Position numbers and translations under genes: made by a program. 64,000 nucleotides of DNA from Hydrogenophaga taeniospiralis (GTDB lineage Bacteria; Pseudomonadota; Gammaproteobacteria; Burkholderiales; Burkholderiaceae_C): positions 4,626,501 to 4,690,500 of the forward strand of contig NZ_JAHBAG010000001.1 of NCBI RefSeq assembly GCF_020510445.1, written 5' to 3'. The notes beneath the pieces were generated by a model that saw only the letters and a program-made list of their open reading frames with translations, searched no databases and was not told where the DNA came from. Every line of letters begins with the position of its first letter. Positions within the stretch are counted from its first letter, which is position 1. Shown here piece after piece: positions 29,574 through 32,696 of the stretch.

Positions 29574-30644
29574 ATGAAAATCGCAGTTCTCCCGGGTGAC
29601 GGCATCGGCACCGAAATCGTGGCCGAGGCGGTCAAGGTCCTCAACGCCCTCGACCTCAGCTTCGAAATGGAATCCGCCCTGGTGGGCGGCGCCGCCTACG
29701 AGGCGCACGGCCACCCGTTGCCCGAGTCCACGCTCAACCTGGCCAAGTCGGCCGACGCCGTGCTGTTCGGTGCCGTCGGTGATTGGAAATACGACAAGCT
29801 GGACCGTCCGCTGCGCCCCGAGCAGGCCATCCTGGGCCTGCGCAAGAACCTGGGCCTGTTCGCCAACTTCCGCCCGGCCATCTGCTACGAACAGCTGGTG
29901 GGGGCATCCAGCCTCAAACCCGAGCTGATCGCGGGTCTGGACATTCTCATCATCCGCGAGCTCACCGGCGACATCTACTTCGGCCAGCCGCGCGGCCGCC
30001 GCGTGGCCACCGACGGCCACTTCCCCGGCGCCGAAGAAGCGTTCGACACCATGCGCTACAGCAAGCCCGAGATCGAGCGCATCGCCCACGTCGCCTTCCA
30101 GGCCGCGCGCAAGCGCAACAAGAAGGTCACCAGCGTGGACAAGGCCAACGTGCTGGAAACCTTCCAGTTCTGGAAAGACGTGGTCACCGAAGTGCACGCC
30201 CAGTACCCCGACGTGGAACTGCAGCACATGTACGTGGACAACGCCGCGATGCAGCTGGTCAAGGCGCCCAAGGCGTTTGACGTGGTCGTCACCGGCAACA
30301 TGTTCGGCGACATCCTGTCCGACGAGGCGTCCATGCTGACGGGCTCCATCGGCATGCTGCCCTCGGCCTCGCTGAACGCGAAGAACCAGGGCCTGTACGA
30401 ACCCAGCCACGGCAGCGCACCCGACATCGCTGGCAAGGGCGTGGCCAACCCGCTGGCCACCATCCTGAGCGCGGCCATGATGCTGCGCTTCAGCCTGAAC
30501 CAGGAAGCCGCCGCGCAACGCATTGAGGCCGCCGTGCAGAAGGTGCTGGCGCAGGGGCTGCGCACCCCCGACATCTGGAGCGAGGGCACGACCAAGGTGG
30601 GCACTTCGCAGATGGGCGACGCGGTGGTCAAGGCCCTGGTCTGA
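29574..30644 (+). CDS. leuB: 3-isopropylmalate dehydrogenase
   Basis: NAD-dependent oxidative decarboxylation of 3-isopropylmalate. The 356-residue protein has [44 protein letters not shown], the [13 protein letters not shown] substrate segment and [27 protein letters not shown], which includes the metal-binding Asp residues. It ends the leu series and is followed by a terminator. Confidence 0.98.
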
Positions 30645-30714: not shown

Positions 30715-31215
30715 TCAGAAGAAATCCGCCCCGGCCGTGGTGATCAGCAAGGTGCCTTCGGGGTCGACCTGAGGCAAAGAGGTGTTCACCGCGACCGGCC
30801 GGAACGTGAAGGCGATCGACAGGCCAAACGCGAGCTCGTGGGGCGTGGGCAAGGTGAAGGTGTTTTGCGCGTCGATGGAGCGGGAGTGGTCCCCGCTGCG
30901 GCGCGCGGACATGTTGCTGCCCGGAACGATATCCCAGCCGTGGACCTTGTTGGGTCCGTCAAAGACATGCAGGTTGTCGATCGCGGCGTGCTGCCCGGTC
31001 TTGAACAGCAGAAACAGCGTCTGCACTTTCAGCCGGCTGTCGTTGAGGATGACGGGTGTCGGAATCGGTAGGTGGCACCAGGTGCCTACGGGTGACTCGC
31101 CCGGGCCAAAAATAAATTGAAGCTCGGTGCCCCAGGCCCAATGCCGCTTGAGGATGCCCTGGGGCAATTCTTCCACCAGTGCATTGCCGTGCACCCACGA
31201 CGCGTACTTGAGCAT
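30715..31215 (-). CDS. Conserved hypothetical protein, beta-rich, unknown function
   Basis: A 166-residue protein starting MLKYASWVHGNALVEELPQG. I choose ATG 31215 because AGGAGG stands eight bases upstream; the frame is open further upstream but that part is Arg/Cys-rich and unconvincing. There is no signal peptide or membrane helix. It has alternating hydrophobic residues and the segments GTWCHLPIPTPVIL, LFLLFKTGQHAAIDNLHVFDGPNKVHGWDIV and AFGLSIAFTFRP, consistent with a beta-sandwich. The opening WVHGNA pattern resembles a DUF family seen in varied bacteria that I cannot name with certainty. It is divergent from the asd leader and convergent with leuB. Confidence 0.7.
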   Translation of the reverse strand: MLKYASWVHGNALVEELPQGILKRHWAWGTELQFIFGPGESPVGTWCHLPIPTPVILNDSRLKVQTLFLLFKTGQHAAIDNLHVFDGPNKVHGWDIVPGSNMSARRSGDHSRSIDAQNTFTLPTPHELAFGLSIAFTFRPVAVNTSLPQVDPEGTLLITTAGADFF

Positions 31216-31355
31216 GTTCAATGCCTCCTGAAAAATGACCACCATTGCAAAGCTGCGCCCCATTCTCCACCGGGCTCGGGCCTTGCAACAAGCCCGCGGT
31301 GAAGCCTTGATCCGAGCAGCAAGCGGCCGTAAGCAGCGCCCAAGCTCGCATCCGC

Positions 31356-31361
31356 TACAAT
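31356..31361 (+). promoter_or_regulatory. -10 box candidate for the asd leader transcript
   Basis: TACAAT in the context GCTACAATC, with no clear -35 hexamer. Transcription would start at about 31368, placing the leader ORF's first ATG (31369) at or very near the 5' end. The leader may therefore be leaderless or start at its internal ATG (31414). Confidence 0.4.
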
Positions 31362-31368
31362 CTCGCCC

Positions 31369-31470
31369 ATGTTTGCCCACCGCCCGTTCAAGCTGAACAA
31401 CGCCTCCGCCGCCATGGCCGGGGTCGCAGTGCGCGCAAACACCACCAAAACCACGACCATTAAGGGCTGA
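31369..31470 (+). CDS. Putative Thr/Lys/Ile-rich leader peptide of asd
   Basis: A 33-codon frame ends ANTTKTTTIKG followed by TGA at 31468-31470. Five Thr, two Lys and one Ile codon fall within the last nine positions: these are end products of the aspartate pathway in which Asd acts. The layout is like the thr operon leader of enteric bacteria. It ends 95 bases before asd, with alternative hairpins between. An internal ATG at codon 16 (31414) is a second possible start. No good Shine-Dalgarno sequence is seen, which fits a leaderless start. Existence and function are inferred; it would be missed by size filters. Confidence 0.55.
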   Translation: MFAHRPFKLNNASAAMAGVAVRANTTKTTTIKG

Positions 31471-31495
31471 ACAGCTCTGGTTCGTCGTGCGCCCT

Positions 31496-31545
31496 CCCCG
31501 GCCAGACGAGCCGGGGCAAACAGTCTGGTCTGGACCTGTTTCTTT
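31496..31545 (+). promoter_or_regulatory. Attenuator-like alternative hairpins between leader peptide and asd
   Basis: Hairpin A pairs CCCCGGC (31496-31502) with GCCGGGG (31510-31516). Hairpin B pairs AAACAG-TC (31518-31525) with GA-C-CTGTTT (31533-31541), followed by CTTT, a weak terminator form. CCAGAC (31502-31507, mostly the loop of A) can instead pair with GTCTGG at 31523-31528 or 31528-31533, which would break both A and B. This mutual exclusion is the hallmark of leader-peptide attenuation. No energies were computed. Confidence 0.5.
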
Positions 31546-31565
31546 AATCTGAAAGGGCGTTTGAA

Positions 31566-32696
31566 ATGAGCAAGTTGGTTGGTTTGGTCGGCTGGCGCGG
31601 CATGGTCGGCTCGGTGTTGATGGATCGCATGGTCGAGGAAAAAGACTTCGACCTGATCGAGCCCCTGTTCTTCTCCACCTCCAACGCTGGCGGCAAGGCC
31701 CCGGCCATGGCGAAGAACGAGACCACCTTGCAGGATGCGCACGACATCGCCGCCCTCAAGCGCTGCGACATCGTCATCACCGCCCAGGGTGGCGACTACA
31801 CCAGCGAAGTGTTCCCCAAACTGCGTGCCGCGGGCTGGAACGGCCACTGGATCGACGCCGCCTCCACGCTGCGCATGGAAAAAGACGCCGTCATCATCCT
31901 GGACCCGGTGAACATGCCGGTGATCAAGGACGCACTGGCCAATGGCGGCAAGAACTGGATCGGCGGCAACTGCACCGTGAGCTGCATGCTCATGGGCGTG
32001 GGCGCGCTGTACAAGGCCGGACTGGTGGAGTGGATGAGCACCCAGACCTACCAGGCGGCGTCGGGCGGCGGCGCCCAGCACATGCGCGAACTGCTGACGC
32101 AGTACGGCACGCTCAACGCCGAAGTGAAGTCCCTGCTGGACGACCCCAAAAGCGCCATCCTGGAAATCGACCGCAAGGTGATCGCCAAGCAGCGCGCGCT
32201 GAGCGGCGCCGAAACGGCCAACTTCGGTGTGCCGCTGGGCGGCTCGCTGATCCCCTGGATCGACAAGGACCTGGGCAACGGCATGTCCAAGGAAGAGTGG
32301 AAGGGCATGGCCGAGACCAACAAGATCCTGGGGCTGGGTGAAGGCTTCGGCTCCGCCGCCATTCCTGTGGACGGCTTCTGCGTGCGCGTGGGCGCCATGC
32401 GCTGCCACAGCCAGGCATTGACCTTCAAACTGCGCAAGGACGTCCCAGTCGCCGATCTGGAAGCCATGATTGCCGCCGACAACGACTGGGTCAAAGTCGT
32501 ACCCAACAACCGTGAAGCGACCGTCAGGGATCTGACGCCGGTGGCCGTGACCGGCACCATGACCATCCCCGTCGGCCGCATCCGCAAGCTGGCCATGGGA
32601 CCGGAATACGTGGGCGCGTTCACCATTGGTGACCAGTTGCTGTGGGGCGCAGCCGAACCGCTGCGCCGTATGCTGCGCATCCTGTTGAGTGCATGA
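31566..32696 (+). CDS. asd: Aspartate-semialdehyde dehydrogenase
   Basis: Reduces aspartyl phosphate to aspartate semialdehyde, the branch point to Lys/diaminopimelate, Thr, Ile and Met. The 376-residue protein is of the gram-negative long type: [20 protein letters not shown] (NADP fold), [12 protein letters not shown], the active-site [20 protein letters not shown] with catalytic Cys, and [20 protein letters not shown]. It is preceded by a probable leader peptide and attenuator. The gap to fimV is 183 bases. Confidence 0.98.

Follow-up and report, generated by a model that had tools for sequence, protein, structure and literature searches.

Aspartate-semialdehyde dehydrogenase (Asd) produces the last intermediate that the routes to Lys, Thr, Ile and Met have in common. 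In the window (the whole stretch of DNA analysed, 64,000 nucleotides), asd (31566..32696, + strand) was identified by Pfam Semialdhyde_dh and Semialdhyde_dhC and gave the single match in the genome. It is preceded by a 33-codon leader ORF, MFAHRPFKLNNASAAMAGVAVRANTTKTTTIKG (31369..31470, + strand), the C-terminal part of which reads NTTKTTTIKG directly before the stop codon. The control codons Thr-Thr-Lys-Thr-Thr-Thr-Ile-Lys (31441..31464, + strand) comprise five Thr, two Lys and one Ile codons, all three amino acids being products of pathways fed by Asd. Rival RNA helices come next, then asd, with 95 nt separating the end of the leader stop (31470) from asd (31566). The leader peptide matched no Pfam or NCBIfam model. 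A sequence-only reading had proposed leader-peptide attenuation of asd, and its coordinates and letters for the ORF, the hairpins, CCAGAC (31502-31507) and the two GTCTGG copies (31523-31528 and 31528-31533) were all correct. The present analysis makes a ribosome-sensed attenuator of asd very probable; of the earlier proposal, the conserved leader and the mutually exclusive helices held, whereas the main switch is a pairing other than CCAGAC/GTCTGG. Beyond that reading, the analysis brought up a LeuB-tail form, a predicted leaderless start and similar asd leaders in two other families, all described below.

The gene leuB (29574..30644, + strand; Pfam Iso_dh) here ends ...GDAVVKALV, without a Thr/Lys/Ile tail. 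An ORF assigned to DUF6623 (30718-31218, - strand) lies between leuB and the leader and separates asd from leuB in the window. By Asd, the closest named records were from Hydrogenophaga and Acidovorax (95% identical), and Asd was identical between genomes of the window's own genus and H. pseudoflava, so the window probably comes from a Hydrogenophaga.

To follow the element through relatives, asd upstream regions were compared from the same genus, family and order and from named genomes. Two forms were found: a free short ORF, as in the window, and, in many relatives, a codon run that is a C-terminal extension of LeuB. By computation, the leader tail and the sequence 3' of its stop were strongly conserved. 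In 112 distinct tails drawn from both types of leader, the last ten codons included on average 7.57 codons for Thr, Ile or Lys, vs 0.94 in 71 control LeuB tails, which still contained two LeuB-type rows (L226 and L227, reassigned on LeuB tail and model match). Of the last ten residues in the 112 tails, 40% were Thr, 19% Lys and 17% Ile, with Met occasional (0.8%). Residue order and length differed among the tails (TKTTTIKG, TKTITKG, TTTKTIKS, GKTITKS and others), and their Thr/Lys/Ile composition was kept. Were the leader end a sequence-specific arrest peptide, stalling the ribosome independently of tRNA charging, the strong preference for KG or KS as the final two residues would be accounted for; since composition is kept while order and length vary, sensing of starvation fits better, and we consider an arrest peptide extremely improbable.

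Alignment A3 and covariance model R1 were built from 66 of 102 sequences. The model found one strong site in the window's genome, located before asd (E 1.2e-20; next best 0.18). Among 200 sampled family genomes, 171 gave a match (E<=1e-3), representing 110 of 126 genera; the position before asd was checked for fetched loci, a subset of the 171 genomes, and the weakest matches (G074, G086 and G140; E above 1e-4) may be due to chance. The sequence-only reading had offered absence of the codon run from relatives as grounds for its own rejection, and both the tail composition and these matches went the other way. A sense-strand match was found in 76 of 80 named loci. When 300 genomes were drawn from the order, ten strong matches were obtained, all within this family. 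Eleven genomes outside the family had weak matches (E 4e-4 to 9e-3), and the one inspected, L150, was located before asd. A second model match in G122 (L161, E 8.4e-5) had no adjacent asd, seems to lie within a coding region and was taken as chance.

Several loci departed from the common arrangement. Partly by a hand-made list, 31 loci were grouped as 'other'; among these, L083 carries the element separated from asd by a gene, and distinct leaders occur at L106 and L111. In L041 (G170), an element-like hairpin region follows leuB, and LeuB ends ...AVIKALK without the codon run, which looks like a decayed element. The same leader was also found at 18 loci that were chosen for their model matches and encode an Asd of a second lineage, with 65-74% identity to that of the window (L162-L171 and L174-L181, e.g. 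in G063, G077 and G079), where it occurs in free and LeuB-tail forms. It is possible that in this lineage the enzyme was replaced under a kept regulator.

In the LeuB form, LeuB reads GDAVVAAITKTITKG or a variant of it, and the leuB stop is the leader stop. Named examples were found in Roseateles, Paucibacter, Rubrivivax, Aquabacterium, one Limnohabitans and one Hydrogenophaga; the free form was found in Hydrogenophaga pseudoflava, Acidovorax facilis and Brachymonas. At least five Thr/Ile/Lys residues were present among the last ten residues in 68 of 68 LeuBs of this form vs 0 of 124 other LeuBs (from genomes with a free leader or without the element); because the LeuB type was defined by the shared stop, the 68 of 68 holds partly by construction, and the independent part of this association is the 0 of 124. 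The counts of the two forms pool two collections in which some rows are of the same or near-identical species, and loci at contig ends (L004, L020, L027 and L197) were left out of them.

It could be asked whether the tail matters as protein, the LeuB extension aiding LeuB or the free peptide acting in trans. The tail composition is conserved, and many free leaders resemble one another at their beginning as well (MFAARPF...), as such a role would have it; however, the LeuBs of free-leader genomes do without the tail, the order and length of the tail vary, and the RNA 3' of the stop codon is conserved too, which makes a protein role very unlikely. LeuB is probably an enzyme and an attenuator leader at once: its dispensable Thr/Lys/Ile tail would sense what the pathway of the following gene produces, and it has probably been exchanged repeatedly with a free leaderless peptide. 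In an Asd tree of 134 rows, in which many branches were weak, at least four changes of form were forced by well-supported branches, and parsimony gave nine. Outside the family, the end of leuB lay within 160 nt of asd in 47 of 58 sampled loci, L150 being excluded; simple adjacency of leuB and asd is therefore probably the ancestral state, from which the free form would derive.

A predicted -10 box of the free-leader promoter, TACAAT, is located at 31356..31361 (+ strand), with a start predicted at the leader ATG or beside it. Computation over the relatives found a TAnAAT/TAnnAT box 5' of an in-frame ATG in 112 of 119 distinct free-type regions, at 6-8 nt from the ATG in 105. TACAAT itself was present in 103 of 130 free-type regions, in none of 66 LeuB-type regions and in 79 of 6500 shuffles. 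A -35 TTGACA box was found no better than in shuffled sequences. As the -10 box mostly lies 6-8 nt before the ATG, a leaderless mRNA is predicted, and the free leader is probably translated from it.

The 197-nt leader RNA folded better than 200 of 200 shuffles (z -2.61). All of its elements are on the + strand. Hairpin 1:2 (31452..31489; -15.0 kcal/mol) pairs 31452-31457 with 31484-31489 and 31465-31469 with 31472-31476. Segment 1b, GGGCUG (31464..31469), has as its partner in the stalled state 4a (31521-31526), part of the 5' arm of hairpin T, with a probability of 0.91 in the window sequence. Arm 2, GGUUCGUC (31479..31486), and arm 3, GACGAGCC (31505..31512), form helix 2:3, as assigned from pairing on A3 and the own-versus-foreign test. 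Hairpin P3 (31496..31516; -14.4 kcal/mol) excludes 2:3. An anti-Shine-Dalgarno (anti-SD) segment, CGCCCU (31490..31495), assigned from fold probabilities, the own-versus-foreign test and flank pairing, has its partner AGGGCG in the asd SD region (31554..31559), which was itself assessed by SD accessibility and window folds. Hairpin T (31518..31545; -5.3 kcal/mol) is weak, U-tailed and terminator-like, with its stem at 31518-31541 and a UUUCUUU tail in the U-rich stretch 31539-31545. On A3, 2:3 was paired in 93.3% of cells (24-49% when slid), P3 in 89.3% (20-55% when slid) and 1:2 in 75.7% (outer helix 66.9%, inner 87.3%; 14-62% when slid). Hairpin 1:2 was improbable at equilibrium in the window folds.

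RNAalifold on sequence subsets gave no covariation bonus, and pair counts with permutation controls were therefore used. Shuffling gave uneven results for the helices. For 2:3, 46 of 500 shuffles attained the covariation score, 490 the number of further pair types and none the number of both-side-changed cells; the covariation score was reached by 2 of 500 shuffles for P3 and by 6 of 500 for 1:2. Own arms paired better than foreign arms in the free form (z -5.3 for 2:3 and -3.7 for 1:2) and in the LeuB form (z -2.6 and -2.4, respectively). Against the median foreign arm, single sequences of 2:3 were better in 7 and worse in 9 cases (free) and better in 19 and worse in 21 (LeuB), so that the 2:3 signal comes from a compensated minority of the sequences. 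One such compensated pair is GACTCGTC and GACGAGTC, arms 2 and 3 of L172 (G092); at this locus, the free leader is followed by an inserted gene (GNAT acetyltransferase-like by eye) and then by asd. In the LeuB form, a helix X:4 (CTGGACCCC with GGGGTCC, CACAAACCC with GGGTTTGTG) crosses 2:3. Its own-versus-foreign z was -7.5, with 24 sequences better and 21 worse than foreign (n=47), and in the free type this helix, which involves a segment different from CCAGAC/GTCTGG, gave no own-versus-foreign signal (z 0.3).

Hairpins between genes are common, and P3 is stable by itself, as would be expected if the region between leuB and asd held a passive hairpin or a processing site without sensing. Such a site would leave unexplained what the computations brought out, namely the conserved codon run, its association with the LeuB tail, the rival helices and the -10 box before the ATG, and we regard it as very unlikely.

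Folds were modelled under different ribosome positions. With the ribosome stalled at the first Thr codon in the window, the probability of 2:3 was 1.00, that of T at most 0.01 and that of the anti-SD pairing 0.00. With the ribosome at the stop and RNA reaching to the asd start, P3 was at 0.99, T at 0.76 and the anti-SD pairing at 0.98; on the just-made transcript, P3 was at 0.67, 2:3 at 0.28 and T at 0.79. Helix 2:3 was also dominant without a ribosome (0.99), so that untranslated leader RNA would read through. For stalls on the last control codons, T stayed at 0.85-0.86 on the just-made transcript. In these models, an early-Thr stall would thus lead to read-through and a free SD, and a ribosome at the stop mostly to the reverse. 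Among 55 free-type sequences, 2:3 went up on stalling in 40 and down in none, and T went down in 18 of 52 free-form sequences. The mean probability of 2:3 in the LeuB form was 0.19 stalled and 0.01 at the stop. The pairing on A3, the own-versus-foreign test and the modelled folds point to mutually exclusive helices placed to respond to the ribosome, the folds weakly so in the LeuB type.

The pairing of CCAGAC with GTCTGG, which the sequence-only reading had put forward as the alternative structure, had a probability of 0.00 in every modelled window state. The window folds ruled it out as the main switch, which is 2:3 versus P3, T and the anti-SD pairing. In the 55 free-type sequences, its own-versus-foreign signal was modest (z -2.5; 13 of 2000 permutations as good), and it was exact in 16, with both GTCTGG copies in 10; no own-versus-foreign signal was found in 47 LeuB-type sequences (z 0.6).

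We propose that the promoter with the -10 box at 31356-31361 would start transcription at the leader ATG or beside it. Under shortage of Thr (and Lys or Ile), the ribosome would stall on 31441-31464; arms 2 and 3 would then pair with each other, as would 1b and the 5' arm of T, and in the resulting absence of P3, T and the anti-SD pairing, asd would be transcribed and translated. When the amino acids are sufficient, the ribosome would reach the stop at 31468 and cover 1b and part of arm 2; P3, T and CGCCCU:AGGGCG could then form, and asd expression would be lowered. In LeuB-type relatives, the ribosome finishing leuB would be the sensor.

The sensor and the switch are well supported; the output may be termination, SD masking or both. 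A hairpin with a U-rich stretch was found in 78% of free-form regions vs 12% of shuffles and in 29% of LeuB-form regions vs 6% of shuffles (45 regions sampled per type; approximate dinucleotide shuffle). A simple terminator scan of the window did not call the hairpin at 31518-31545. On the side of translation, most sequences had an asd SD region complementary to the leader CGCCC, and some LeuB-type SDs were not complementary to it. The base flanking CGCCC paired with the SD side, in A-U, U-A and G-U forms, in 84 of the 91 distinct regions (of 176) that had both motifs, although 63 of the 84 flank pairs belonged to one common G-U or G-C class. In the own-versus-foreign test, the anti-SD gave a modest signal, z -2.6 and -2.4 (12 and 21 of 2000 permutations as good), with 23 single sequences better vs 20 worse than foreign SDs (n=55). 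On stalling, SD accessibility in the free form went up in 22 of 55 sequences and down in 3; in the LeuB form it went up in 2 of 47 and down in 11, opposite to the model, which contradicts SD masking as a universal output.

These data bear on whether the same sensor might act on translation only, with CGCCCU masking the asd SD unless 2:3 captures that segment, and the downstream hairpin being incidental. The change of the anti-SD pairing in the window (0.98 at the stop vs 0.00 stalled), its decrease on stalling in 30 of 55 free-type sequences with an increase in none, both own-versus-foreign scores, the flank pairs and the many LeuB-type hairpins without a U-tail agree with this. The excess of U-tailed hairpins in the free type, the LeuB-type SD accessibility and non-complementary SDs, the near balance against foreign SDs and the predominance of one flank-pair class speak against it, and a translational-only output appears possible but rather doubtful.

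Other Thr/Ile/Lys-rich short frames were observed immediately before asd in L111, L298 and L299 (family f13) and in L106 and L150 (family f31), with ends such as ...IKRTTTIITKTVMKG, ...SITTIITKKTKTIILV and ...VITKTITTKTIIKR before the stop. Strong rival hairpins without a U-tract come next. Outside the family, 4 of the 58 sampled loci had such a leader, as did L150, which had been chosen because of its weak match (E 4e-4); the f31 genomes L109 and L265 were without one. These different asd leaders in two other families of the order suggest that control of this branch-point enzyme by a leader arose, or was rebuilt, on several occasions.

If the proposed ribosome-sensed attenuator is correct, it would act in cis and sense several products of the Asd pathway at once. 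The LeuB-tail form would mean that a leader peptide can do without a frame of its own, the last codons of an enzyme gene taking its place, so that in-operon attenuators at gene ends would be missed by scans for short ORFs or 5' leaders. In addition, the occurrence of two forms in closely related genomes makes attenuator evolution directly testable.

The element is very probably a widespread asd attenuator of a known kind, undescribed as far as the searched literature shows, and the LeuB-tail form is its surprising part. In the titles and abstract starts searched, no asd attenuator or leader peptide was found for these bacteria, nor an enzyme tail used as a leader; a 2004 survey of proteobacterial attenuators may include a related prediction. 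The asd RNA of Lactobacillales (RF01732) and an attenuator-like sequence reported before Streptococcus mutans asd (PMC2864571) are likewise RNA elements upstream of asd, but belong to another phylum. The window element was matched by neither RF00506 (Thr_leader) nor RF01732 (asd RNA) at the gathering score or at E<=10, and the only Rfam match at E<=10 was a chance one on the other strand. The enterobacterial thrL-thrABC attenuator (Rfam Thr_leader, RF00506) resembles the present element in its leader Thr and Ile codons, its rival hairpins and its control of aspartate-family synthesis; unlike it, the present element controls asd, adds Lys codons and uses a leaderless free ORF or a LeuB tail. 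The trpL of Sinorhizobium is reportedly a leaderless attenuator leader, with a short ORF at the mRNA 5' end, and is similar in the position of its leader ORF but has Trp codons and acts on trp genes. To our knowledge, leaderless attenuators such as trpL have no enzyme-tail form. In SecM-secA and MifM, regulatory nascent chains make the end of an upstream protein the sensor for a downstream gene; these are dedicated sensors with arrest sequences, whereas the LeuB form is a biosynthetic enzyme carrying amino-acid control codons.
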